Positions 7,789 to 37,604 of a stretch of DNA of 64,000 nucleotides are shown one piece after another (the first letter of the stretch is position 1; the number at the start of each line of letters is the position of its first letter). The stretch spans positions 248,001-312,000 of the forward strand of contig NZ_MJUX01000001.1 in the NCBI RefSeq assembly GCF_001927245.1, written 5' to 3'. A program made the translations under genes and the position numbers. Origin of the DNA: Acuticoccus yangtzensis. Lineage in GTDB: Bacteria; Pseudomonadota; Alphaproteobacteria; Rhizobiales; Amorphaceae. Below the pieces are notes generated by a model. That model saw only the letters and a program-made list of their open reading frames with translations. It ran no database searches and had not been told where the DNA came from.

Positions 7789-8493
7789 TCAGATGCGCGT
7801 CAGAGCGCCTGAACCGAGGCGCGCCCCAGTCGGCTGACCACTCGGCGAACCGCCCTCGGGCTCCGACGTGACGACGAATTCGGTGCTGGAATCGATCAGC
7901 CTGACCGCATCGGCCGGAACGCTGATCTGCGACCGGCCGTCCGGCGCGAGGAGGCCGAGCGAAACCGGACTTCCACTCGCCGGAACAAGCCACAGCTCCG
8001 CCGCGCGCTGGGCGATTTCGGGCGGAACGGGCTCGGCGACGAGGCGGCCGTCGTCGCTCAGCCGGGCGAGAGCGATGGTGCCGTCGAGCCGCACGATCGT
8101 GGCGATCCAGTCCTCGGCGCCGGCCGGCCCCCCGATCCCAGCGAGATCCGGGCGCACCACCACCGCGACCAGGCAGGCCGCCGCCACGCCGAACAGGGCC
8201 ATGACGGCGATCGCCGTATCGCGCCAGAACACGGCCGCGCGGCGCATCTTGCGCAAGGCGGCGTCGTCGGCCCCGAACAGGCGCGCCGTGATGGCGCGCC
8301 AGACCCGCGCCGGCGCCTTTCGCGGACGCAAAGCCCCAGCGAGCGGGCGGAATGTCTCCTCCCAGTGCCACACCACGCCGGCCAATTCAGGATCGTCGAT
8401 CAGCGCCACCTCGAAGCGCCGCCGGTCGGCCGCGTCCTCCAGTCCCAGCGCATATTCCCCGGCGTCGACCCGGTCGCTGTCACTGATGCTCAT
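7789..8493 (-). CDS. Anti-sigma factor, RskA/anti-sigma-K type
   Basis: A membrane-anchored regulator of the ECF sigma factor encoded just upstream. The 234-residue protein has a cytoplasmic N-terminal domain (ADRRRFEVALIDDPELAGVVWHWEETF) typical of anti-sigma-K proteins, one membrane segment (about 95-116, AIAVMALFGVAAACLVAVVV), and a periplasmic RskA-like domain with AELWLVPASGSPVSLGLL. There is no zinc-binding HxxxCxxC motif, so it is not a ZAS-type anti-sigma. Start is the ATG at 8493, overlapping the sigma stop (ATGA), which suggests the two are made in fixed ratio. Confidence 0.88.
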   Translation of the reverse strand: MSISDSDRVDAGEYALGLEDAADRRRFEVALIDDPELAGVVWHWEETFRPLAGALRPRKAPARVWRAITARLFGADDAALRKMRRAAVFWRDTAIAVMALFGVAAACLVAVVVRPDLAGIGGPAGAEDWIATIVRLDGTIALARLSDDGRLVAEPVPPEIAQRAAELWLVPASGSPVSLGLLAPDGRSQISVPADAVRLIDSSTEFVVTSEPEGGSPSGQPTGARLGSGALTRI

Positions 8494-9041
8494 AACGAGA
8501 GGCACTCCCTCAACTGCGCCAGCGCTCGGCGCATCCGGCTCTTGATAGTGCCTAGGGGGGTCCCGTCGCGCTCGGCCAGCGCCCGATAGGTCACGCCGCC
8601 AAAATAGGCGATGCGGATCAAGCGGCCGTCGCCCTCGCCGAGGTCGTCGATGCAGGTGACGAGGCGCTTGGCCTCGGCCGACGCCATCGCCTTCTGGTCC
8701 GGCCGCATCGCCGTATCCGCCACCATTTCCGCTGCCTCCAAGGCTGCCAGCGGCGCCCTACGCGCCCGCAGCCGGTCGATACAATGGTTGCGCGTGATGG
8801 CGATCATCCACGTCGTCGCCTTCGCGCGGGAGGCCGCATAACGCTCCGCATAACGCCAGATCTTGACGTAGGCGTCCTGCATCGCGTCTTCCGCCTCGGC
8901 CTTGTCCTGGAGGATACGCAGGCAGAGCGCGAAAAGTTTGGCGTTGGTTCTTTGATAGAGGAGATCGAAGGCCCGGCGGTCGCCCAGGGCGGTCTTGTTC
9001 AACAGCTCGTCGATGCTGGCATCGTCCATGCTGGAAATCAT
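8490..9041 (-). CDS. ECF-type RNA polymerase sigma factor
   Basis: An extracytoplasmic-function sigma factor of 183 residues. Region 2 includes LCLRILQDKAEAEDAMQDAYVKIWRY; region 4 has IAYFGGVTYRALAERDGTPLGTIKSRMRRAL, a helix-turn-helix for -35 binding. The partner is the RskA-like anti-sigma encoded downstream with a 4-base overlap. The start is the ATG at 9041 with AAAGGA ten bases upstream; ATG 9029 is an alternative. The signal and regulon are unknown. A copy of its own promoter would be expected in 9042-9284, but no clear motif could be assigned. Confidence 0.92.
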   Translation of the reverse strand: MISSMDDASIDELLNKTALGDRRAFDLLYQRTNAKLFALCLRILQDKAEAEDAMQDAYVKIWRYAERYAASRAKATTWMIAITRNHCIDRLRARRAPLAALEAAEMVADTAMRPDQKAMASAEAKRLVTCIDDLGEGDGRLIRIAYFGGVTYRALAERDGTPLGTIKSRMRRALAQLRECLSL

Positions 9042-9284
9042 GCCGGAGGCGTCCTTTATCCCCGCTGCGGCCGACCGTTTGCAGCATGCCGCCACGTCCC
9101 CGAAGGACGGGCGGGCGAACCGGACGAGACCGTTTTGGCGGCAACTCTCGTCCAGGGTTCGCGGGGCTTCTACGGCAACGCGTTAAACCTCAAGGCGCTA
9201 GCCATAGCGGTGAAGTGGCGCGGAAACAATCGCAGTACCGCGCCACTTGCGTCCTTCTCCAGCGGGCCGGGCATCGTCGCCCGG

Positions 9285-9695
9285 TCAGGCCGGCACCGGC
9301 CGGCGGGAGCCGACGAGGAGTTCGATCACGAGCGCTTGATCGCGCGCGGTGGCATGGCGGTAGAGGTCCGCGATGGCGCCAGGATGAGCCCGCCACTCCG
9401 GGATCGTATGGCTTTCACATTCCGGCCGGCGTTCGTCGCGCACCAGTTCGGCGAGCGAGGTGCCGAGGGCATCGGCCACGGCCTTCAGCCGGACGATGGA
9501 GATGTTCCCCTTGCCATGCTCGAGCTGGGCCAGGAAGCGTTCCGACACACCGCTGCGTTCGGACAGAACGCGCCGCGAAATCCGGCACTTGTTGCGGGTG
9601 AGTTTGACCCGTGCACCGACATTCGCGAGGAACATGTCGCGGTGCCCGGACTCTTCGACGTCGAAGAGTGTATCGTTCAAGATCGTCTCAATCAT
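9285..9695 (-). CDS. XRE-family HTH regulator, BzdR/BoxR-like N-terminal half only
   Basis: A 136-residue DNA-binding protein. Residues 25-85 form an HTH_3 domain (VGARVKLTRNKCRISRRVLSERSGVSERFLAQLE...). It is very like the N-terminal domain of BzdR/BoxR regulators, including the SERxLAQLExGxGNIS signature. Those proteins carry a C-terminal shikimate-kinase-like effector domain, but here the reading frame ends about 40 residues after the HTH with no kinase part. No benzoyl-CoA or box genes are nearby. Start ATG at 9695; target unknown. Confidence 0.82.
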   Translation of the reverse strand: MIETILNDTLFDVEESGHRDMFLANVGARVKLTRNKCRISRRVLSERSGVSERFLAQLEHGKGNISIVRLKAVADALGTSLAELVRDERRPECESHTIPEWRAHPGAIADLYRHATARDQALVIELLVGSRRPVPA

Positions 9696-9771: not shown

Positions 9772-9999
9772 TTAGGATGCAATTTTGGGCTCTGCCACCA
9801 TGTCGAGGCACCAGCGGTTGGCCTCGTCGGGCGTCAGCTCCAGTGCAAGGAGCGCGGCCGCAAGAAGTTGTGCGCAGATCACTTCTCCGCCACCTTCAGC
9901 CTCTGCGCGGGCATATTCGATGAGGCGGCTGAGAACCTCGCGATCATTGATCAGACTCGCTCGGTTGTAATTGTCCTGAACGTGAAAACAACCTGACAT
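9772..9999 (-). CDS. Small hypothetical protein (75 aa)
   Basis: Not recognised. It has a good ATG preceded by AGGGGTGATTAA, and the sequence is balanced and protein-like, with an acidic helix (EVLSRLIEYARAEAEGGGEVICAQLLAAALLALEL). No membrane segment or signal peptide. It lies alone between the HTH gene and the SARP-type activator, divergent from the latter, so their promoters must share 10000-10160. Function cannot be proposed. Confidence 0.5.
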   Translation of the reverse strand: MSGCFHVQDNYNRASLINDREVLSRLIEYARAEAEGGGEVICAQLLAAALLALELTPDEANRWCLDMVAEPKIAS

Positions 10000-10160: not shown

Positions 10161-12146
10161 ATGACAAGTGACGCTTTGTTGCAGATCCAACTACTTGGCA
10201 GCCCCGCCATCACGCGCGACGGTACGCCGATTGAATTTCCGAGCCGCAAGTCCGCCGCTCTTTGTCTTTACTTGATCGCCAATGCCGGCCGGCACATCGA
10301 ACGCGGCCACCTGGCAGCCTTGCTTTGGGGCGATCATGACGCGGAAGCGGCACGCGGTTCGCTGCGCAAATGCCTGTCGTTGTTGCGCGCCAACGATCAG
10401 ACCGCCTCGCTGATCGGGTCGGACCGCGGTCACGCCTGGTTCGCCGGCGATCCGACGCGGACCGATCTCGCGACCTTCAATCGCTGCCTCGGCGCCGGCA
10501 CCGAACGCGCCTACCGCGAGGCCAGCCGCCTGTGGCGCGGGCTCCCGCTGGCGGACTTCGAGCTCGGCGAGGCCCTGTTCGACGATTGGACCGCCCGGTT
10601 CCGCAGCGACACCGTCGGCGTCACCCACAAGTGCCTCGCCAAACGGCTGGATTCCATGCCCGAGGAACGGGCGCCGATCAGCCTGCAGATCGCAGCGTGC
10701 GAACTCCTCATCACCGTCGAGCCTTCGGACTCGGAAGCGAACGAAAGGCTCCTGCGCCTCCTCCTGAAGGATGGACAAAAAGCCGCAGCCGCACGCCAGT
10801 TCCGTGTCTACGTGAATGCGCTGAAGGAACTCGACCTGGACCCGCCGGCCGAGCTCGTGGAGGAGTTCCGCGGCGCCCTCGGCGGACCTGAGGTGGACGA
10901 GAGCCTTCCGCTGGCACGTGCCCCGAACGCGCCCCAGCGGGACCGGCCGAGCGTTGCCCTCGTGCGCGCCCGCCCGTCACAAAACGTCATGCCCGACCTT
11001 CTGAGCTATGCCCACTCGGAGGTCATCCACCAGCTCACGCGCTTCCGCTCCATGCGCTGCTTCGAGCGGGACGACCACGATCGAGGCGGCCAGGACACCG
11101 GCCTCATCGCGCGGATCGGCTTCACCGACGCGCTCGACCACGACTACCGCCTCCTGCTGTGGGACGAGCCGCGCGCCCGCTCCATCTATCTCAGGTGCGT
11201 CAACACGCGGCGCCAGGACACCGTGTCCTCCACCCGCATCGGCTATGACCGGCTGGAAGACCGCGCGTCGGCCGAGGCGATCATCGCCACCGCCATCAAC
11301 AGCCTCGAACAGGACATCATCACCGACGACCGGCCGCGCCTCTCGGGCTCACCGTTCGAGCGCTGGCTGGAGGCCTACCAGCTCCTCACCCAATGGAGCG
11401 AAGCCTCGGCCCGCCAGGCCATGCCGATCCTGGAGGACCTCGCCCTCGACCCGCAGGGCAAGCGCCTCAGCCTGGTCCACTCGTCGATCAGCTCGCTCCT
11501 GATGATCCGCCGGCTGATGATCCCCACCTCCGCGGCGATGGCGAAGGCCGATCAGGAGCGCGCCCAGGCGACCGCTCTCAAGGCGGTCTCGATCGACGCG
11601 CTGGAGCCGTTCAACCACATCATCCTCGGCTGGACGCGGATGCAGGCCAACGAGCATGACACCGCGCTCCTTTCCTTCGACGATGCGATGGCGCTGAACC
11701 CTTATTCGGCGTCCACCGTGGTCGCCGCGGCGGAGGCCTATGCCTATGCCGGCAACGCCGCCATGGCCTCGAAGCTCGCGGACAAGGCGGCCTCGCTGAC
11801 CGGGCGCTTCATACCGCCTTATTATTACACCTACTTCGCCAACATCGCTTATCTCAGCGGCGACCTCGACCGCTGCATCGAGCATCTGCGTCGCGCGCCG
11901 GAAAGCATCCACACGGCCACACTTCTCGTCGCCGCCCATGCCGAGCGCGAGGACATGAAGGCGGCCGCCGCCGCGCGCGTCCGGTTCGAGCGCGAATTGC
12001 GCCGGGCCGAGCCCTACGCCCAGTCCGACGGCAGCACCGTCTCCAAGTGGCTTGTGTCCACGAACATGCACCGCGACCCCTCGGTCAGGCAGAGAATGTT
12101 CGGCTCGCTGGAGCGGGCGGGGATGCCGGTCGCCGCCGCGCGCTGA
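10161..12146 (+). CDS. SARP/BTAD-type transcriptional activator with TPR-like C-terminus
   Basis: A 661-residue regulator. Residues about 7-80 match an OmpR-type winged helix (LLGSPAITRDGTPIEFPSRKSAALCLYLIA, then ALLWGDHDAEAARGSLRKCLSLLR). A bacterial transcriptional activation (BTAD) domain follows to about 245 (DWTARF...ALKELDLDPPAELVEEFRGAL). The middle region (265-400) resembles the part linking such activators to TPR repeats, and 420-650 is helical with TPR-like pairs (FDDAMALNPYSASTVVAAAEAYAYAGNAA). The family often controls secondary metabolite clusters. Here it is the nearest regulator to the precursor/YcaO pair, which is suggestive but not proof. No sensory membrane segment. Confidence 0.85.
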   Translation: MTSDALLQIQLLGSPAITRDGTPIEFPSRKSAALCLYLIANAGRHIERGHLAALLWGDHDAEAARGSLRKCLSLLRANDQTASLIGSDRGHAWFAGDPTRTDLATFNRCLGAGTERAYREASRLWRGLPLADFELGEALFDDWTARFRSDTVGVTHKCLAKRLDSMPEERAPISLQIAACELLITVEPSDSEANERLLRLLLKDGQKAAAARQFRVYVNALKELDLDPPAELVEEFRGALGGPEVDESLPLARAPNAPQRDRPSVALVRARPSQNVMPDLLSYAHSEVIHQLTRFRSMRCFERDDHDRGGQDTGLIARIGFTDALDHDYRLLLWDEPRARSIYLRCVNTRRQDTVSSTRIGYDRLEDRASAEAIIATAINSLEQDIITDDRPRLSGSPFERWLEAYQLLTQWSEASARQAMPILEDLALDPQGKRLSLVHSSISSLLMIRRLMIPTSAAMAKADQERAQATALKAVSIDALEPFNHIILGWTRMQANEHDTALLSFDDAMALNPYSASTVVAAAEAYAYAGNAAMASKLADKAASLTGRFIPPYYYTYFANIAYLSGDLDRCIEHLRRAPESIHTATLLVAAHAEREDMKAAAAARVRFERELRRAEPYAQSDGSTVSKWLVSTNMHRDPSVRQRMFGSLERAGMPVAAAR

Positions 12147-12225
12147 GGGACGGCGCCCGGATCGCATCGGGCACCGTCCGCCGCGGCATCTCCCGCCGCG
12201 GCATCATCAAATCAGCGGCACCGCC

Positions 12226-12262
12226 AGATCAGCGTCATCAGATCAGCGACGTCAGATCAGCG
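12226..12262. repeat. Three 14-bp tandem repeats at the 3' end of the RiPP precursor gene
   Basis: AGATCAGCG recurs at 12226, 12240 and 12254 with a 14-base period (linkers TCATC, ACGTC). The last unit covers the codons for the final Leu-Ile, the stop, and part of the preceding Pro of the precursor. The others lie just beyond the stop, between it and the convergent activator gene. Confidence 0.8.
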
Positions 12263-12557
12263 GGCGGCAGCAGCCGAGCACCGCGGCCGTGCCGAGCGTC
12301 TTCAGATAGTCCGGATCGTCCGCCTTCAGCTTCTGCGCATCCACCTCACGCGGGAGCACGACGTGAAGCGTCTCGCTGTCGTCCTCGTGCAGGACGACGT
12401 TGAGGCCGACCAGACTTTCCTCGGGCACACCGCAGGAGCGCAGATAGGCGACCGGGTCGGCGCGGAAGGCAGCCCGCTTGGCCGGATCGTTCGCCGCTTC
12501 GCCGAACGCCTTGCCGATGTGGGGGATCGCCGCCGTCTTGACCGGAATGCGTGCCAT
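12252..12557 (-). CDS. NHLP-type RiPP precursor peptide with Cys-Cys core
   Basis: The 101-residue product looks like a nitrile-hydratase-like leader peptide (NHLP) precursor. It has a short helix with DPAKRAAFRADPVAYLRSCG, then VGLNVVLHEDDSETLHVVLPR, the beta region typical of NHLP leaders. It ends in LGTAAVLGCCRPLI, where the adjacent Cys96-Cys97 form the likely modified core. There are no other Cys or Ser/Thr-rich stretches near the C-terminus. Start ATG 12557 (GAGAGG 8 bases upstream) leaves 117 bases to the divergent ycaO gene for promoters. An upstream ATG at 12653 has a stronger GGAGG seven bases away and would give 133 residues but only 21 bases between the genes. Confidence 0.78.
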   Translation of the reverse strand: MARIPVKTAAIPHIGKAFGEAANDPAKRAAFRADPVAYLRSCGVPEESLVGLNVVLHEDDSETLHVVLPREVDAQKLKADDPDYLKTLGTAAVLGCCRPLI

Positions 12558-12674
12558 CGTCGTATCCTCTCCTGCATCGGCGACGGTCGTCGCGCTCTCT
12601 GCCGATCGCGCAGTGACCACGCGGTTATTTTCCAATTCGCTTAAAGTCATCATCGTCACGCCTCCGATCTCATC

Positions 12675-13883
12675 ATGGTCACACCCGCCCAACGCTTTGC
12701 CATACCTTTGTCCGGCGGGGAACCGGCGTCGATCGACCTGTCCATCATCACGGCGAATATTTCGGGGTGCCCGGCCAGCTTTCGCATCGCCCGGCCCGCC
12801 AACCCGGCCTCGGCACCGCGGTGGACACGCGCCTTCGTCGCCGCCGCCGGCCGCGGCTTCACCCCGCGAGAGGCCGAAACCGGCGTCATCTTCGAGGCGA
12901 TCGAACGGGCGTCGGCCCTCGCCGACGGTCCAGAGGATCCCCGCCGCCACATTGCCGCCGATCCCGCCCGCAACGCAAACCATTACTGGCAGTTCAGCGC
13001 CGCACAACTCCGTCAGCTGAGCGAACGCGCAGCAACGGACCTCGCCGAACCCTCCAGCGTCGCCGCGACCGACCTCGTGAGCGGCCAAGCCATCATGGTG
13101 CCCGCCAGCGCGATCTTCGTCGATGAGGACATCCGGCTCGGCTGGCCGCCCATTGTCGGCACCTCGAGCGGGACGGCCGCGCGCCCCGCCTTTGCGGACG
13201 CCGCCCGCGCGGCTCTCCTTGAACGCATCGAGCGCGATGGCTTGGCGATCTGGTGGTACAACCGCCTGCCCGCGCCGGTGCTCGACCCGCAGGACGTGGC
13301 CGACGCGCTGCCGCCCGCCTTCGCCGCGTGGATCACCGGCCGCCGCCGCACGACCACGCTCCTCATGACGCCGACCGACCTCCCCGTTCCGGCCGTCGTC
13401 GCCCTCACCGCGACCTCCGCGGGCGATGCCCCGGCGATCGGCGCCGCCGCCGCGCTCGACCCCTGCCAGGCGGTGCGCGCCGCCATCCTGGAGGCGCTGC
13501 AGTGCGAGATCGCCCTCGCCCACATGCGCCTTGCCCAGGAGTGCGCGGATCCGCCGCCCGTTCCGCCGCTCCTCGCCTGGTCGCGCACGACGCGCCTCCA
13601 CGACCACGCTCATCTGGCCGGCGCGGCGACCGTCCGCCTTCCCGCCCCCACGACCGAAGCACGCCTCCTCGCCGGCCTGGCGCGCGCGGAGGTCGACGTC
13701 GCCATCGCCGACATCACCCGGCCGGAGATCGGCATCCCCGTCGCCAAGGCCGTCTCGCGCACGCTGCGGGACTGGCAACCGCGTTTCGCGCCCGGCCGCC
13801 TCGCCGATGTCCCGGTCAAACTCGGCCTGCGCGACAGGCCGGCGCGCGAGGACGAGATGAACCCGCTCCCCTTCGTCATCTGA
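12675..13883 (+). CDS. YcaO-domain cyclodehydratase (SagD-like)
   Basis: YcaO enzymes use ATP to activate backbone amides; with a RiPP precursor they form thiazolines/oxazolines. The 402 residues carry ATP-binding signatures: GRGFTPREAETGVIFEAIERAS (Glu74, Glu77, Arg78), LLERIERDG (Glu183, Glu186, Arg187), IGAAAALDPCQAVRAAILEALQ, and the late VDVAIADITRPEIGIPVAKAV. The protein ends NPLPFVI, like the proline-rich terminus of azoline-forming YcaOs. The usual Asn in the SNG segment is Ser (TSSGTAA). There is no fused E1/ThiF or Ocin partner domain and no separate partner or dehydrogenase gene in the window. No clear Shine-Dalgarno before ATG 12675. Transcribed away from the precursor gene. Confidence 0.87.
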   Translation: MVTPAQRFAIPLSGGEPASIDLSIITANISGCPASFRIARPANPASAPRWTRAFVAAAGRGFTPREAETGVIFEAIERASALADGPEDPRRHIAADPARNANHYWQFSAAQLRQLSERAATDLAEPSSVAATDLVSGQAIMVPASAIFVDEDIRLGWPPIVGTSSGTAARPAFADAARAALLERIERDGLAIWWYNRLPAPVLDPQDVADALPPAFAAWITGRRRTTTLLMTPTDLPVPAVVALTATSAGDAPAIGAAAALDPCQAVRAAILEALQCEIALAHMRLAQECADPPPVPPLLAWSRTTRLHDHAHLAGAATVRLPAPTTEARLLAGLARAEVDVAIADITRPEIGIPVAKAVSRTLRDWQPRFAPGRLADVPVKLGLRDRPAREDEMNPLPFVI

Positions 13884-13958
13884 CCGCGCCGCCGGGGGCT
13901 TAGCCGCCGGCCCGATCGGCGCTACACCGTAGACCGGAGCGAACCCCTAAGGACCGCC

Positions 13959-14801
13959 ATGCCCGCCACCTCATCACCGCGCGCCGTCAGCTTCACCGCA
14001 CTTCGCCTCGCCGCGCTGACCGGAGCCCTGGCGCTCGCCGGATGCGTCGGCGGCTCCGGCGGCGGCACCGCCAGTGCCGCGGGGGGATGCGCCGCCCCCG
14101 CCACCATCCCGGACGGCGACGACGACCTCGCCCTCTTCGCCGGGAGCTGCGCCACCTTCACCACCTTCACCGAAGGCGGCGAGACCTGGCGCATCCAAAC
14201 CTTCCGCAACGGCTCCGGCCCGCTCTTCGTGGTGCCGCACGACGACGAGAACGCCTCGCTCGCCACCGCCGCAGCCGCCATCGCCGCACGCGGCGGCACG
14301 GTGACCGCGGTGGAAACCGGCGGCCGACGCTTCAACGGCCGCATCGACCCCAACCGCAACTTCGACGGGGGCGCCCTCTCCTGCGGCAAGCCCCGCCGCA
14401 GCCCCCGCTTCGTCGCGGCGATGCTGCCCGGCGGGCGCCCCATCATCGCCCTTCACACCAACAGCCCCGGCGCCGCGTCGACGGGCGGGTCCGGCACCAT
14501 CTCCATCCGCGCCCCCTATGCCGGGGCCACCGCCTTCCCCGCCACCGGCCCGCTCGCCAAGGACGACGCCATGGTGATCCTCGCCAGCCGCAACGGCCCC
14601 GCGGGGGTCCAGAGCCTCACCCGGCGGCTCAATGCGGCCGGCATCAACGTCATGGTGGAGACGGTCGACACCACGCGGACCGACTGCTCGCTGTCCCACT
14701 ACGCAGTCGCCAACGGCATTCCCTACGCCAACGTGGAGGCCGCCCACGGTGACGGCGCCACCCAGCGCGCGATCCTCGACATCCTCCTGCGCGAGATGTG
14801 A
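13959..14801 (+). CDS. Lipoprotein with M14/AstE-like zinc peptidase residues
   Basis: A 280-residue protein with a lipobox (LALAGC, Cys29), so probably anchored in the envelope. The body has His94-x-x-Glu97 (VPHDDEN), DPNRNF at 131-136 and a later His167 (IALHTNS). This spacing recalls the zinc ligands and Arg of M14 carboxypeptidase/succinylglutamate desuccinylase folds. Enzymatic function is inferred only. It lies 75 bases after ycaO in the same direction and could be part of that transcript, for example in processing or self-protection, or be unrelated. A GC-rich hairpin without T-run follows the stop. Confidence 0.7.
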
Positions 14802-18338: not shown

Positions 18339-21300
18339 TCAGAGCAGGAAGTCGGACGCGGTGAGGCTCAAGACGCCCGTCAGCTCGATCCGCAGCTCCG
18401 GCACCAGATCCGCATCCGTATTGGCCGAAACGATGGTGACGTTGTCGATGATCGCCACCGAAACCTCGCCCAGGCCCGGCAGCGTCCCCGCCCCGGCGAA
18501 GACGAAGGCCTGGTTGCCGGCCGTGGTCGTGTCGGCGTCCACCGCCGAAAGGTCGATGAGATCCTCGCCGATGACGAAATCGCGGATGATGTCGCGCGCG
18601 CTGGCCGCCACACCGGAATCGCCGTCGCCGATCACCACCCGGTCGCGTCCGGCGCCCAAGGCATAGGTGTCCTGCCCGGCGCCGCCCGTCAGCGTGTCGT
18701 TGCCGTCCCCGCCCACCAGCGTGTCGTTGCCGAGGCCGGTGCTGATTGTGTCCGCCCCGCCCTCGCCGCGGACATAATTGTCGAGCCCGTTGCCCTCGAT
18801 GAGGTTCGCGAGTTCGTTGCCGTAGCCGGAGTTGACGCCACCTCCGAGCACCAGCTCCTCGACGAAATCGGTCAGCGTATAGTTGGCGACGGCGGCGATC
18901 ACGCGGTCCGTTCCCTGCCCGCTCGTTTCCACCACCTCGTCGTTCGGCGTGTCGACCACATAGATGTCGTCGCCGCGCCCGCCGACCATGACATCGCGCC
19001 CCGCCCCGCCGTTCAGCAGGTCGTCGCCGTCGTCGCCCTGAAGCGTATCGTTGCCGTCGCCGCCGAAGAGCTGGTTGTCCGCACCGTTGCCGATGACGGC
19101 GTTGTCGAGGTCGTTGCCCGTGCCGGACAGGATCGACCCGCCGAGCGTCAGGTTTTCCACGTAGGCGCCGAGACCGTAGCCCTCGGCATAGGACAGCACC
19201 GTGTCCGTGCCCTCGCCGGCATATTCGCCCACCACGTCCTCGGTCAGGCCGACGATGTAGAAATCGTCGCCGAGCCCCCCCACCATGGAGTCGATGCCCG
19301 CGCCGCCGTTCAGCGTATCGTCGCCGTCGCCTCCGACCAGCGTATCGGCGCCGAGCCCGCCTTGCAGGTCGTCCGCGCCCTCTTCGCCGCGCAGATAATT
19401 GTCGAGGTCGTTGCCGATGATGACGTTGGCGGCCGCGTTGCCGTACCCGGCCGTGGCGTTCCCGGCCAGCGTGAGCTGCTCCACATTGGCGGTCAGGCGG
19501 TAGTTCGAGACGTAGGAGAGGACGCTGTCATAGCCCTCGCCCGACGCTTCGTGCACGACGTCGCCTGCGAGCCCCACGACATAGTCGTCGTCGCCGCTGC
19601 CGCCGCGCATGGTGTCGGCGCCGGCGCCACCATTGATCGAATCGTCGCCCCCGCCGCCGACGAGGGAATCGTTGCCCGCACCGCCGTCGAGCGCGTTGCC
19701 GGAGGCGTTGCCGATGATGACGTTGTCGAGCCCGTTGCCGGTGCCGCTCGCCACACCGCCGGCCAGCTCCAGCCGCTCCAGATTGTCGCCCAGCGTGTAG
19801 CTGACGCTGGCCACGACGCGCTCATAACCCTCGCCCGCCTCTTCGACGATGATGTCCGCGACATTGTCGACGAGGTAGACGTCGTCGCCCAGACCGCCGA
19901 TCAGCGTGTCGCGGCCGGTGCTGCCGTCGATCGTGTCGTTGCCTCCGCGCCCGGCGAGATAGTCGTTCCCGCCGAACCCGGAGAGACGGTTGGCCGCGTC
20001 ATTGCCGAAGATCGAATTGTCCTCGTCACTGCCGTTGCCGATCACCGCGACGCCGGTGAGGATCAGCCGCTCGACGTTCGCGAACAGCGTGAAGTTGACG
20101 TTCGAGACGACGGTATCGAGCCCCTCGCCCGCGTTCTCGACGATCGTATCGGCGCTGCCGGTGACGATGTAGCGGTCGTCGCCCAGGCCGCCGACGAGGG
20201 TGTCCGCCCCGTCGCCGCCGTCCAGCGTGTCGTTGCCCGCATTGCCGCGCAGGTGGTCCTGGCCGCCGTTGCCGGTCAACACGTTGTCACCCGCATCGCC
20301 GATCAGCGTGTCGTGGCCGTTGCCGGTCTCGATGTTCTCGACCTGGCTGACGACGTCGACACCCTGGGCGTTGATCGTCGCCGCGTTCAGGTCCACGCGC
20401 ACGTTCGCGTTGATGCCGACATAGCTGACCGTGTCGCGCCCCGCCCCGCCGATGATCGTGTCGTTGCCGCCGCCGCCGTTCAGAACGTCGTCGTCGGCCC
20501 CGCCCTCGATCCGGTCGTTGCTGGTGCCGCCGAAGATGGTGTCGTTGCCGGCGCCGCCGCGCAGGGTGTCGTGGCCCTCGTCGCCGTTGATGAGATCGGC
20601 CCCGTCGCCGCCCAATACGCTGTCTTTGCCGTCGCCGCCGGACAGCTCGTCGTTGCCCGAGCCGCCGTCGATCGTATCGTCGCCGCCGTTGCCGGAGATC
20701 GTGTCGCGCCGGGCGCCGCCCGAAATGTTCTCGGCCAGGCTGCTGCCGGTGAAGTCGTCATCTTGGGAGGTCAGGATGAAGGTCCCCGCTTCGATATTGC
20801 GGATCACTGTACCGTCGTTGAACTGGTAGACGATCGTGGTCCCGTCAATCACCACTCCACCAGTAACCGCCGGGTTAATCCAGCCCGAAATGTGGCCTCC
20901 GGGATTGTCCGAGCGGTCGTAGATCACCGTATCGAAGCCGGCCCCGCCGTCCAGCGTGTCGGCACCGCGGATCGATTCCAGCGTGTCGTTGCCGCCGCCG
21001 CCCTGCACGAAGTCGTTGCCGAACTGGCCGTAGGCGCCGCCCTCCTCCGTCACCACGTCGTTGCCCGCACCGCCGATGATGACGTCGTCACCGCCCGCGC
21101 CGATCAGCGTGTCGCTGCCCTCGCCGCCGTCCAAGGTCACGTTGAAGAGCGGCTGCTCGGTCAGCTCGTCATAGACGAGGGGCGTCGCGACGAGGCGGTC
21201 GTTTCCGGCCTCGCCATAGAGCGCATCGGCGCTGCTGCCGCCATAGACGGTATCGTTGCCGTCGCCGGCATAGACCGTGTCCTGCGAGGAGCCGAGGATG

Positions 21301-21743
21301 ATCGTATCCGAAAATCGCGTCCCGTAGAGCAGGATCTCGGAGAAGTTGGCGATCGACGTGCCGTCGGTAAAGGTCGCCGCCGTGGTGAACGCTGCGGGAC
21401 CGCTGGTGGAGCGCGTCATCAGCGCCGCACCGTCGCCGCGACGGTCGAGGATCAGGCTGTTGGTGCCGCTCGCCCCGCCGTCCAGCGAGTCAGGCCCGCC
21501 ATAGCTGACGATCGTATCGTTGCCCGTGCCGCCGAGGATGGTGTCGGCCGTGGTGTTGTAGGCCGGCGTGTCAGGCGTCCCGTCGACGTTGTCGTCGGTC
21601 AGATAGTCGTTGCCGGCGTCCCCTTCGATGAGGTCGCCACCCGCCCCGCCGACCACGGTATCGTTACCGCCTTCCGCGGCGACGGTGTCGTTGGACCCGT
21701 CGAGGACGATGAGATCGTCGCCTTGGGTCGGATCCTCGTTCAT
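18339..21743 (-). CDS. RTX (hemolysin-type calcium-binding repeat) protein, 1,134 aa
   Basis: Built almost wholly of calcium-binding nonapeptides GGxGxDxLx, starting within the first 20 residues. In the second half, five or so larger modules of roughly 90-100 residues recur: a GGLGDDxYxV strand, a segment like EGTDTVLSYVxxYxLxAxVExLxLxG, then GxGNxLDNxIxGN and new RTX repeats. It ends in LTASDFLL, consistent with an uncleaved C-terminal type I secretion signal. No catalytic domain is visible, so it could be a structural or adhesive surface protein. No type I secretion genes are in the window. ATG 21743. Confidence 0.9.
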   Translation of the reverse strand: MNEDPTQGDDLIVLDGSNDTVAAEGGNDTVVGGAGGDLIEGDAGNDYLTDDNVDGTPDTPAYNTTADTILGGTGNDTIVSYGGPDSLDGGASGTNSLILDRRGDGAALMTRSTSGPAAFTTAATFTDGTSIANFSEILLYGTRFSDTIILGSSQDTVYAGDGNDTVYGGSSADALYGEAGNDRLVATPLVYDELTEQPLFNVTLDGGEGSDTLIGAGGDDVIIGGAGNDVVTEEGGAYGQFGNDFVQGGGGNDTLESIRGADTLDGGAGFDTVIYDRSDNPGGHISGWINPAVTGGVVIDGTTIVYQFNDGTVIRNIEAGTFILTSQDDDFTGSSLAENISGGARRDTISGNGGDDTIDGGSGNDELSGGDGKDSVLGGDGADLINGDEGHDTLRGGAGNDTIFGGTSNDRIEGGADDDVLNGGGGNDTIIGGAGRDTVSYVGINANVRVDLNAATINAQGVDVVSQVENIETGNGHDTLIGDAGDNVLTGNGGQDHLRGNAGNDTLDGGDGADTLVGGLGDDRYIVTGSADTIVENAGEGLDTVVSNVNFTLFANVERLILTGVAVIGNGSDEDNSIFGNDAANRLSGFGGNDYLAGRGGNDTIDGSTGRDTLIGGLGDDVYLVDNVADIIVEEAGEGYERVVASVSYTLGDNLERLELAGGVASGTGNGLDNVIIGNASGNALDGGAGNDSLVGGGGDDSINGGAGADTMRGGSGDDDYVVGLAGDVVHEASGEGYDSVLSYVSNYRLTANVEQLTLAGNATAGYGNAAANVIIGNDLDNYLRGEEGADDLQGGLGADTLVGGDGDDTLNGGAGIDSMVGGLGDDFYIVGLTEDVVGEYAGEGTDTVLSYAEGYGLGAYVENLTLGGSILSGTGNDLDNAVIGNGADNQLFGGDGNDTLQGDDGDDLLNGGAGRDVMVGGRGDDIYVVDTPNDEVVETSGQGTDRVIAAVANYTLTDFVEELVLGGGVNSGYGNELANLIEGNGLDNYVRGEGGADTISTGLGNDTLVGGDGNDTLTGGAGQDTYALGAGRDRVVIGDGDSGVAASARDIIRDFVIGEDLIDLSAVDADTTTAGNQAFVFAGAGTLPGLGEVSVAIIDNVTIVSANTDADLVPELRIELTGVLSLTASDFLL

Positions 21744-35961: not shown

Positions 35962-36705
35962 TCAGTCCGCCATGCCGATGCCGGGGCGCCAGGCGCCGGG
36001 GCACGGATTGTCGTTGACGTAGACGTGCTCGATCGCGTCGAGCTGCGCCCACAGCATGCCGCACTTGAACTCCAGCGCCTTCAGCGCGGCCCGCTGCGTC
36101 TCCGGCGTGCGCGCATGGGTGCAGACATAGTCGAGAGCGAACTCCGCATCGCGCGGCGCCTCCGACAGACGGTGCCCGAAATAGCGCAGCACGCTCTCGT
36201 CCACGAAATCGTAGTGCTTCAGCATGCCCGAGACGCGCTCGGAGATGATCTGCGGCGAGAACAGCTCCGTCAACGACGACGCGATCGCCTCCAGCAGCGT
36301 CCGCTCGGCGACGAAGTGGACGTAGGCGTCGCACGCGAAGCGCACCGCCGGCAGCGCACCTTCCATCGACTGCACGTAGGCGCGCGTAAAGCCGAGCCCG
36401 TCGGTCAGCGCAAGCCAGCGGCGCAGGCCCCCTTCGGGCGCATCGCCGATCTCGCCGTCATGGTCGATGATCCGCTGCCGCCAGATCCGCCGCAGCTCCA
36501 CATCGTCCATCCGCGCCAGGATCGCCGCGTCCTTGAACGGGATGATGCGCTGATAACAATAGCGGTTCAGCGCCCAGGCCCGCACCTCGTCGATGGTGCA
36601 CTGACCGCTGTGAAGGCGCCGGTGGAAGGGGTGCAGATTGTGGTACCGCTCCGCGCCGATCTGTTTCAGCGCCGCGGCGAGCTCGTCCGGTGACAGGATC
36701 TTCAT
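35962..36705 (-). CDS. pqqC: Pyrroloquinoline-quinone synthase PqqC
   Basis: Catalyses the last step of PQQ synthesis, an eight-electron oxidation and ring closure. The 247 residues match the family along the whole length: NLHPFHRRLHSGQCTIDEVRAWALNRYCYQ, IIPFKDAAILARM, RRIIDHDGEIG-like RQRIIDHDG, VRFACDAYVHFV and FSPQIISERVSGMLKHYDFV, including the conserved His/Arg/Tyr active-site residues. ATG 36705 overlaps the pqqB stop by four bases (ATGA). No pqqD or pqqE follows; a structured repeat and a convergent gene do instead. Confidence 0.95.
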   Translation of the reverse strand: MKILSPDELAAALKQIGAERYHNLHPFHRRLHSGQCTIDEVRAWALNRYCYQRIIPFKDAAILARMDDVELRRIWRQRIIDHDGEIGDAPEGGLRRWLALTDGLGFTRAYVQSMEGALPAVRFACDAYVHFVAERTLLEAIASSLTELFSPQIISERVSGMLKHYDFVDESVLRYFGHRLSEAPRDAEFALDYVCTHARTPETQRAALKALEFKCGMLWAQLDAIEHVYVNDNPCPGAWRPGIGMAD

Positions 36706-37604
36706 AAGGTCAACTCCATGCCGTCGTGACCGATCTCCCAGCCCGCGGCCTCGGCCTCGGCGCGCTCCGGCCCGTCGCGCCACAGCGGGTTCGTGTTGTT
36801 GAGGTGAACGAAGACGCGCCGCGTCACCGGCGTGCCCGCCCAAGCCGCGATCGACCCGTCCGGGCCGGAAACGGACATGTGTCCCATCCGCTTGCCCGTC
36901 TTGGTGCCGACGCCGGCGCGCTGCATTTCGTCGTCGGTGAAGAGCGTCCCGTCGAAGAGGAGCGCCTCGGCCCCCTCGACGCGGGCGCGGAGCGTGTCGT
37001 CCACCGAGGCGCACCCTGGGATATAGTGCAGCGTCGCCCGCCCGTCGCTGATCGCGAGCCCCACCGTCTGCTCGCCGACGAGGTCGGTCACCACCTCGCC
37101 CTTCTCCATGAAGAGCGGCACCTTTCCGGGCACCGCATAAAGCGTGACGGAGAGGCCGGGGAGGAGCTCGTAGCGCGTCCCGAGGTGAAGCGGCGAGCGG
37201 GTCACCACAGCGGGGTCGAGCGCGTCGAACACCGGGTTCGCGGCCAGAACGCCGAGGATGCTCTCGGTCGCGAAGAGGGTGAAGGGCTCTTTTTCGCGCA
37301 ACGTCAAAAGGCCGGCGATGTGGTCGAGATCGCCGTTGGTGAGGAGCACCGCCGCGATCGGCGAATTGCGCAGCGCGCCGCCCGTGCGCGGGTGAAGCTG
37401 CGGCCGGGCGATGATCTGGCTTCGCAGGTCCGGCGAGGCGTTGATGAGAAGCCAATCCTCACCGTTCGCGCTCACCGCAAGAGAGGACTGCGTCTGCGGC
37501 GGATGGATCGGCGCGCCCTGCCAATAGCTCGCACTGTTGGGCGCGGCACAGTTCCACTGCGGCAGGCCCCCGCCGGCCGCCGCGCCGACGACGAGCGCCT
37601 TCAT
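36702..37604 (-). CDS. pqqB: Pyrroloquinoline quinone biosynthesis protein PqqB
   Basis: An MBL-fold protein that hydroxylates a Tyr in the PQQ precursor pathway. The 300 residues start KALVVGAAAGGGLPQWNC, the hallmark PqqB N-terminus with the metal-binding CxxC area. They contain NASPDLRSQI, TNGDLDHIAGLL (metal-site His and Asp), FDGTLFTDDEM and HLNNTNPLW. The start is ATG 37604. The 170 bases upstream were read in all three frames for a pqqA peptide (Glu and Tyr spaced by three), but none was found. So only B and C are present here. Confidence 0.95.
   Translation of the reverse strand: MKALVVGAAAGGGLPQWNCAAPNSASYWQGAPIHPPQTQSSLAVSANGEDWLLINASPDLRSQIIARPQLHPRTGGALRNSPIAAVLLTNGDLDHIAGLLTLREKEPFTLFATESILGVLAANPVFDALDPAVVTRSPLHLGTRYELLPGLSVTLYAVPGKVPLFMEKGEVVTDLVGEQTVGLAISDGRATLHYIPGCASVDDTLRARVEGAEALLFDGTLFTDDEMQRAGVGTKTGKRMGHMSVSGPDGSIAAWAGTPVTRRVFVHLNNTNPLWRDGPERAEAEAAGWEIGHDGMELTL

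Follow-up and report, generated by a model that had tools for sequence, protein, structure and literature searches.

A partnerless YcaO protein, an NHLP-like protein and a BTAD regulator as a possible functional unit in Acuticoccus yangtzensis and related Hyphomicrobiales

Azoline-forming YcaO enzymes mostly depend on a partner bearing an RRE (recognition element of RiPPs, the ribosomally synthesized and post-translationally modified peptides) to find their substrates. How would a YcaO protein devoid of such a partner choose its target, and what would it make of it? This question is raised by a small locus of the marine bacterium Acuticoccus yangtzensis (Hyphomicrobiales, Amorphaceae; genome of 5.04 Mb), which we analyzed within a stretch of 64,000 nucleotides, hereafter called the window. 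The first-pass annotation of this DNA had proposed that an NHLP-like precursor and an azoline-type YcaO make up a minimal locus of RiPP type, a proposal that our analysis supports and whose coordinates and sequences hold. The genes follow the order regulator, precursor, YcaO, with a lipoprotein-like gene beyond: a SARP/BTAD regulator of 661 residues (10161-12146, + strand), an NHLP-like substrate protein of 101 residues ending in GTAAVLGCCRPLI (12252-12557, - strand) and a YcaO of 402 residues without the E1/Ocin_ThiF half (12675-13883, + strand). On balance, we lean towards a joint reading in which these three genes would constitute one functional unit, the YcaO turning Cys96 of the precursor into a thiazoline without any E1/Ocin partner and the regulator controlling the unit.

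The YcaO protein is the only one encoded in the genome. It matches the Pfam YcaO model (3.9e-39, 135 bits for a cut-off of 25.7) and keeps E74, E77, E183, E186, R187, E273 and Q276, as well as a C-terminus reading NPLPFVI. In LynD, glutamates form part of the ATP site; the residues aligned with them and the C-terminal NPxP stretch are both kept in the window protein, in line with the ATP-site glutamates noted by the first-pass annotation. The only PDB sequences matched were those of LynD (2.4e-25), TruD and MusD. The fold search made with a predicted model (pLDDT 84) was likewise led by LynD, followed by MusD and TruD, and no separate extra domain was visible in this model, on which no RRE model was run. 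Among solved YcaOs, the nearest ones are thus RiPP cyclodehydratases and not non-RiPP enzymes, and the window YcaO would be of azoline type by this kinship. The catalytic domain, glutamates and C-terminal NPxP of LynD, TruD and MusD align with it; however, these proteins are of about 780 residues and their N-terminal half is missing here.

The 101-residue precursor is a real gene under purifying selection and not a chance open reading frame. It is preceded by a Shine-Dalgarno-like AGGAG, has the same length in seven Acuticoccus genomes and shows among them dN values of 0.15-0.33 for dS values of 0.61-1.32 (substitution rates at nonsynonymous and synonymous sites, respectively), with 465, 363 and 987 differences at codon positions 1, 2 and 3. 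An antisense reading frame (12363-12644, + strand), favored by a simple codon-usage caller, is ruled out as the true gene by the dN/dS of the precursor frame. The precursor is found in seven of the eight genomes of the genus, including the window's own, and the order regulator, precursor, YcaO is kept in 6/7 of the other genomes, so that the small gene does prove to be conserved beside the YcaO in relatives. In the remaining one (G001, 89% complete), no match to the precursor was obtained, and the sole YcaO is a more distant one located elsewhere. In five of the seven Acuticoccus genomes, the frame runs 30 codons further upstream (MF[YF]xAxI..) with a third-position bias (L044:10002-10091, L045:10522-10611, L046:9810-9899, L047:9795-9884 and L048:9879-9968, L designating our loci), and this extension starts at a CATG, shared in most of these genomes with the start codon (ATG) of the divergent YcaO frame. 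The precursor may thus be longer in these five.

As regards its family, a profile of ten related proteins (group A, see below) had as its first matches among PDB sequences the NHLP leader structure 8tb1 (E 0.0012) and alpha chains of nitrile hydratase. This agrees with the NHLP-like label given by the first-pass annotation, although the score of the NCBIfam NHLP model for the precursor is under cut-off. Four related proteins scanned with that model stayed under the cut-off as well (best E 1.4e-6, 28 bits). The strongest matches of the genome to the NHLP model (C12:653184-653579 and C29:4007-4405) were rejected as additional precursors, being nitrile hydratase alpha chains; both have beta-subunit genes adjoining.

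The part of the precursor that a YcaO would be expected to modify lies at its end. Cys96 is present in 7/7 precursors of the genus and is the sole conserved cysteine; it closes the motif L88-G89-x6-C96 (12270-12296, - strand) and is the predicted modification site. The adjacent cysteine pair had been put forward as the feature of interest. The residue following Cys96 is Cys in three of these genomes, the window's included, Leu in three and His in one, so one cysteine only is conserved; a bis-thiazoline, rejected on this count as the common product, is unlikely to be shared by the genus. Mean identity within the genus amounts to 82% for residues 82-96, 68% for residues 1-81, 57% for residues 97-101, 70% for the whole precursor and 49% for the YcaO. 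In a diversifying toxin or antibiotic, the core is expected to vary most. Since the segment up to the cysteine is here the most conserved stretch of the protein, the product is probably no variable weapon. Nor does the precursor contain a core rich in Cys, Ser or Thr, with the several modified residues by which thiazole/oxazole-modified microcins (TOMMs) are recognized. The chemistry would be that of YcaO and NHLP proteins by kinship, yet the locus lacks both the TOMM partner and the multi-residue core.

Is a partner encoded elsewhere? The locus contains no E1-like or Ocin_ThiF-like partner, as judged with an E1 profile built in this analysis, and the statement that neither such a partner nor a dehydrogenase nor an exporter is present in it was confirmed. 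Over the whole window genome, there was no match at E 0.01 to the TIGR03882 partner model, other partner models such as TIGR03603 and PF00899 not having been searched genome-wide; TfuA had no match at E 0.01 and SagB (TIGR03605) none at E 0.001. Two other Acuticoccus genomes (G006 and G007) carry a TfuA gene elsewhere. Given this lack of a SagB match, the product would stay an azoline unless an unrelated enzyme oxidizes it. NHLPs are folded, and the RRE of a partnered YcaO holds them by contacts with a helix and a strand (PMC12455567). A partnerless YcaO must therefore recognize its substrate otherwise, for which the YcaOs of bottromycin (PMC7136475) and E. coli YcaO acting on folded uL16 (PMC13063428) provide precedents.

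The window YcaO is not isolated in this respect. We scanned a collection of 84,980 species with a pattern derived from an alignment, a query with the single YcaO sequence having given nothing, and obtained 206 relatives. Among the best 80 of these, 72 had an E1 domain and 8 had none, according to an E1 model built from two relatives. In all 8 E1-less cases (Acuticoccus kalidii, A. mangrovi, two metagenome genomes, Arboricoccus pini and three Pannonibacter), the neighbors included an NHLP-like precursor as well as a large BTAD regulator. In the scan after removal of duplicates, a large BTAD regulator accompanied 1/74 partnered YcaOs and a short one 15 of them, the short ones listed being from Lentzea. 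We also surveyed 397 Hyphomicrobiales genomes, fetching all 59 places scoring at least 140 bits and twelve lower ones. Taking as large a BTAD regulator of more than 450 residues within 4.5 kb of the YcaO, we found one near 45/51 partnerless YcaOs versus 0/10 partnered ones in the order (Fisher 9e-8, kinship being ignored). The six exceptions include L201, where the BTAD frame is cut short, and L051, where a cyclase-TPR protein is found instead.

In a quick tree of 107 rows, which had three long branches and took in only the first 45 partnered rows, the partnerless YcaOs make up one split (53 rows, SH-aLRT 90) free of partnered and TfuA-type rows; support for group A alone is 74. The TfuA-type YcaOs of the order form a separate branch, their assignment resting on a profile in G636 and G006, on inspection by eye in L232 and L239 and on the branch alone for the others. 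The initial picture of a single reduced locus thus gives way to a large partnerless group with substrate families of its own. At the level of the class, a profile of the group A alignment matched 10/385 genomes including the window's own, the other matches being weak (best 5.9e-9), and the module was not seen in the gene calls of five weak-match loci (L060-L063 and L067; stretches of 3 kb on which the YcaO profile was not run).

Three kinds of substrate cover 49/53 partnerless loci. Group A (18 loci) has NHLP-like precursors resembling that of the window. Group B (27 loci) has a protein of about 120-200 residues, mostly adjoining the regulator, whose penultimate residue is Cys in 28/28. Five of these proteins had no NCBIfam match and nothing better than E 0.03 in Pfam, below cut-off, and the group B profile found nothing better than E 0.22 among PDB sequences. 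Group C (4 loci) has other proteins ending in Cys-Arg. A comparison by hhalign, confined to A and B substrates, gave a probability of 9%, by which homology of these two is not established. All three kinds nevertheless share a motif counted backwards from the cysteine, in which position -8 is hydrophobic, -7 is small and -3 is in most cases Ile, Leu or Val. The three positions are satisfied by 18/19 Cys-bearing substrates of group A, 23/28 of group B (28/28 for -8 and -7) and 4/4 of group C. This gives 45/51 Cys-bearing substrates versus 1/92 among the remaining proteins of these loci that carry a Cys within their final 14 positions, for a motif defined post hoc from the sequences viewed and for family members that are not independent.

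The link between group B substrates and YcaO could also be followed from the substrate. A profile built from 19 group B proteins of these same loci gave 29 matches in 26/397 genomes of the order; 26/26 have a YcaO, and 28/29 matches lie within about 6 kb of it, which shows only that copies apart from YcaO are rare. The exception, G598, is a natural split of the unit: the substrate and a haem peroxidase match (C1:6178971-6180549, at 6.18 Mb) are separated by 1.3 Mb from a YcaO at 4.87 Mb that has no BTAD regulator adjoining. In the Pannonibacter-type loci (L195, L197-L199, L201, L204, L050, L125 and L191), two paralogous NHLP-like proteins are encoded by adjacent genes; the Cys motif is carried by one of them, and the other is devoid of Cys, except for a Cys as last residue in one case. 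This second, motif-less paralogue might be a recognition helper.

Which other genes accompany the pair? In the window, the regulator exceeds the Pfam BTAD cut-off (25.9 bits for 22.1); its DNA-binding domain stays under that of Trans_reg_C (16 bits for 26.2), as does a C-terminal TPR-like match. A large regulator adjoins the YcaO in 6/6 other genus loci having the YcaO-precursor pair. The SARP-type activator, first assigned to the locus by position, can be retained as part of it, being conserved beside the YcaO both among Acuticoccus loci and in further families of Hyphomicrobiales. The four group C regulators display a nucleotide-cyclase domain over cut-off in 4/4, BTAD in 2/4 and the TPR model in 3/4. 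By contrast, no TPR match over cut-off was obtained for the window regulator or for either of the two group B regulators scanned. The habit of pairing with such a regulator extends somewhat beyond the group: 3/10 TfuA-type places sampled also have a large BTAD regulator, so that the pairing could reflect plain cluster regulation. At three TfuA-type loci (L231:3734-7968, L232:4031-8063 and L239:3927-7946), a BTAD regulator and a small protein directly precede the YcaO, the small protein having short repeats in L231 and L239. Some thioamide loci of the order thus seem to share the regulator habit.

A second recurrent companion is an animal-type haem peroxidase (PF03098), for which 5/5 proteins tested were over cut-off. 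Its gene adjoins the substrate gene on the same strand in 23/27 group B loci and is present in 3/4 group C loci and in 1/4 loci without a known substrate. In the stretches examined, it is absent from 18/18 group A, 82/82 partnered and 9/9 TfuA-type loci and from one unclassed locus. The window genome has no PF03098 match, and two other Acuticoccus genomes have one elsewhere. In groups B and C, this peroxidase may oxidize the ring or, in group B, the preceding Tyr, or it may use the product.

Among the 22 most widespread neighbor clusters, only YcaO, the regulator, the substrates and the peroxidase span more than two genera. The conserved end of the precursor, the lack of other multi-genus neighbors and the recurring regulator together suggest that the product is an internal signal or cofactor. 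We propose that the YcaO would dock the folded NHLP-like body, the conserved C-terminal segment or both directly, without a partner. ATP would then be spent in converting the single Cys96 into one thiazoline, other YcaO reactions being possible. Finally, the regulator would activate the unit and may respond to its product, either the modified protein itself or a C-terminal piece released from it.

Several points weigh against this joint reading. On the enzyme side, the thiazoline is a presumed product, assigned through the relationship of the YcaO with azoline-forming ones; the SagD-family model TIGR03604 gives the window YcaO 131 bits for a cut-off of 219, and MusD, a close relative, is an ATP-dependent peptidase according to the title of its PDB entry. 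On the substrate side, the NCBIfam NHLP model gives the precursor 12.7 bits (E 0.088) for a cut-off of 50.9, and a Foldseek search with the precursor model had no good match (best E 1.9) and was uninformative. As for the absence of a partner, the genome-wide search relied on one partner model, and one of an unfamiliar kind may exist. A candidate in group A is a protein of 75 residues encoded divergently from the regulator (9772-9999, - strand in the window), which has relatives in the Pannonibacter-type loci and is found in 16/18 group A loci. At the level of the family, four of the 53 partnerless loci have none of the three substrate kinds, and 9/28 group A proteins lack a Cys within their final 14 positions, among them L089, where the motif lies further inside; the post hoc origin of the motif is to be added here. 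No protease, exporter or immunity gene recurs among the widespread neighbor clusters, which leaves the release of a small product unsupported.

The alternative that survives best, which we consider conceivable although on the unlikely side, is that the whole modified NHLP-like protein is kept in the cell as a ligand or cofactor of the regulator and, where present, of the peroxidase. It would account for the conservation of the entire protein (70% mean identity in the genus) and for the lack of proteases and exporters among the neighbors shared by more than two genera. It also fits the large regulator near 45/51 partnerless YcaOs, the cyclase domains (4/4) and TPRs (3/4 over cut-off) of group C, and a peroxidase gene neighboring the substrate gene on the same strand in most B and C loci. 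However, this reading has to assume that regulator and substrate are linked physically or genetically, the TPR matches of the window and of two group B regulators are under cut-off or missing, and the BTAD regulators at 3/10 TfuA-type places are compatible with plain cluster regulation. One could go further and assume an undescribed class of partnerless YcaOs in Alphaproteobacteria. These would read the C-terminal motif on three substrate kinds that are otherwise unrelated and install one terminal heterocycle; the modified end would be an intracellular signal or cofactor sensed by the regulator, with a DNA-binding or nucleotide-cyclase output, and used or further oxidized by the peroxidase in two branches. 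As a whole, this larger scheme seems to us rather unlikely and is offered tentatively.

An ordinary linear azol(in)e peptide of NHLP type, in which two cysteines would become two thiazolines before cleavage behind the leader and export by distant genes, appears quite unlikely. The relatives of the leader, the azoline-type YcaO and the Cys-Cys of 3/7 genus genomes speak in its favor. On the other hand, 4/7 have Leu or His in place of the second Cys, residues 82-96 are better conserved than the leader, neither a TIGR03882 partner nor a SagB dehydrogenase was found in the genome, and the neighbors spanning more than two genera, among the 22 widest clusters, are limited to YcaO, regulator, substrates and peroxidase.

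A further possibility is that the YcaO performs another reaction on the C-terminal segment, such as thioamidation, macroamidine formation or an ATP-driven cleavage as in MusD. MusD is indeed one of the three PDB sequences matched, and the accessible portions of two articles describe YcaOs that make an amidine or a thioamide without an RRE partner (PMC7136475, PMC13063428). We nevertheless judge such a reaction improbable: the window genome has no TfuA match, the TfuA-type YcaOs of the order sit on another branch, and a Cys at a fixed place of the motif in 45/51 Cys-bearing substrates fits ring formation. That the locus is a decayed, non-functional remnant of a partnered TOMM locus, as its lack of partner, dehydrogenase and exporter could suggest, is scarcely credible in view of the purifying selection, of the LynD-aligned glutamates kept and of its conservation across genera and families as one tree split.

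How does the unit compare with known systems if our preferred reading, a single thiazoline made by a partnerless YcaO, is retained? The closest parallel is with MprC and MprE, which likewise associate a folded NHLP-type precursor with an azoline-forming YcaO, the structure of MprE7 (8tb1) ranking first among the PDB sequences found with our precursor profile. In the available part of that article, however, the RRE domain of MprC binds the leader, and ten substrates acquire two to six rings (PMC12455567). The window unit differs by the absence of a visible RRE/E1 half, by one conserved Cys in a conserved end and by the large BTAD regulator. From LynD, TruD and MusD, the partnerless YcaOs are set apart by forming their own split. 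Bottromycin precursors are not known to have an NHLP leader and use a follower peptide. The standalone YcaOs of bottromycin, responsible for a C-terminal thiazole and a macroamidine, work without partner proteins as far as the accessible text of the source goes (PMC7136475), a likeness drawn from this description, as no bottromycin YcaO sequence was compared. Similarly, the part available of another study reports that E. coli YcaO recognizes folded uL16 without an RRE (PMC13063428); that enzyme makes a thioamide on a ribosomal protein and is not among the PDB sequence matches of the window YcaO. The YcaO-TfuA thioamide loci of the order resemble the unit by their YcaO and, in 3/10, by their large BTAD regulator, and differ by TfuA and by their separate branch. 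Finally, the regulator gene adjoining a short peptide or protein gene recalls the RRNPP-type TPR peptide sensors, an analogy only, as the window regulator does not reach the TPR cut-off. The latter are Gram-positive systems sensing unmodified short peptides.

Beyond the unit, the lipoprotein-like gene downstream of the YcaO (13959-14801, + strand) is a neighbor and probably no part of it: although previously counted in the locus, it is missing in two of the seven genus loci and was ruled out as a member on its presence in 5/7. The M14-peptidase-like residues ascribed to its product found no support, the protein having no Pfam, NCBIfam or PDB-sequence match. On the other side, genes for an ECF sigma factor, an RskA-like anti-sigma factor and a helix-turn-helix protein (7789-9695, - strand) adjoin the unit in 7/7 Acuticoccus loci, and in our listing of neighbor clusters they belong to this one genus only. 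Elsewhere, the window encodes a protein of 1134 residues with 20 stretches matching RTX calcium-binding repeats (18339-21743, - strand). It also contains a gene of the TENA/THI-4/PQQC family and one of metallo-beta-lactamase fold (35962-37604, - strand), possibly a portion of a cluster for pyrroloquinoline quinone (PQQ); the latter gene is presumably PqqB-like, going by its start sequence.

We found no description of such a unit in the open-licence literature of PubMed Central. In keeping with this, the terms "peroxidase", "Alphaproteobacteria" and "rhizobi" are absent from the main text of Cox 2015 (PMC4603692), and "SARP", "BTAD" and "peroxidase" from that of a study mining TfuA loci (PMC8120280). 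The partnerless family is thus apparently undescribed. Mining by E1, ThiF or TfuA partners misses such loci, and one published mining study left out standalone YcaOs by its own statement, according to the part of it available (PMC7136475); the C-terminal motif provides a handle for finding them. A group without RRE whose three substrate kinds share this motif would make the choice of site by a YcaO without RRE testable with two small genes. The recurrence of a large BTAD regulator, joined in two branches by an animal-type haem peroxidase, speaks more for a signal or cofactor derived from a peptide than for an antibiotic.

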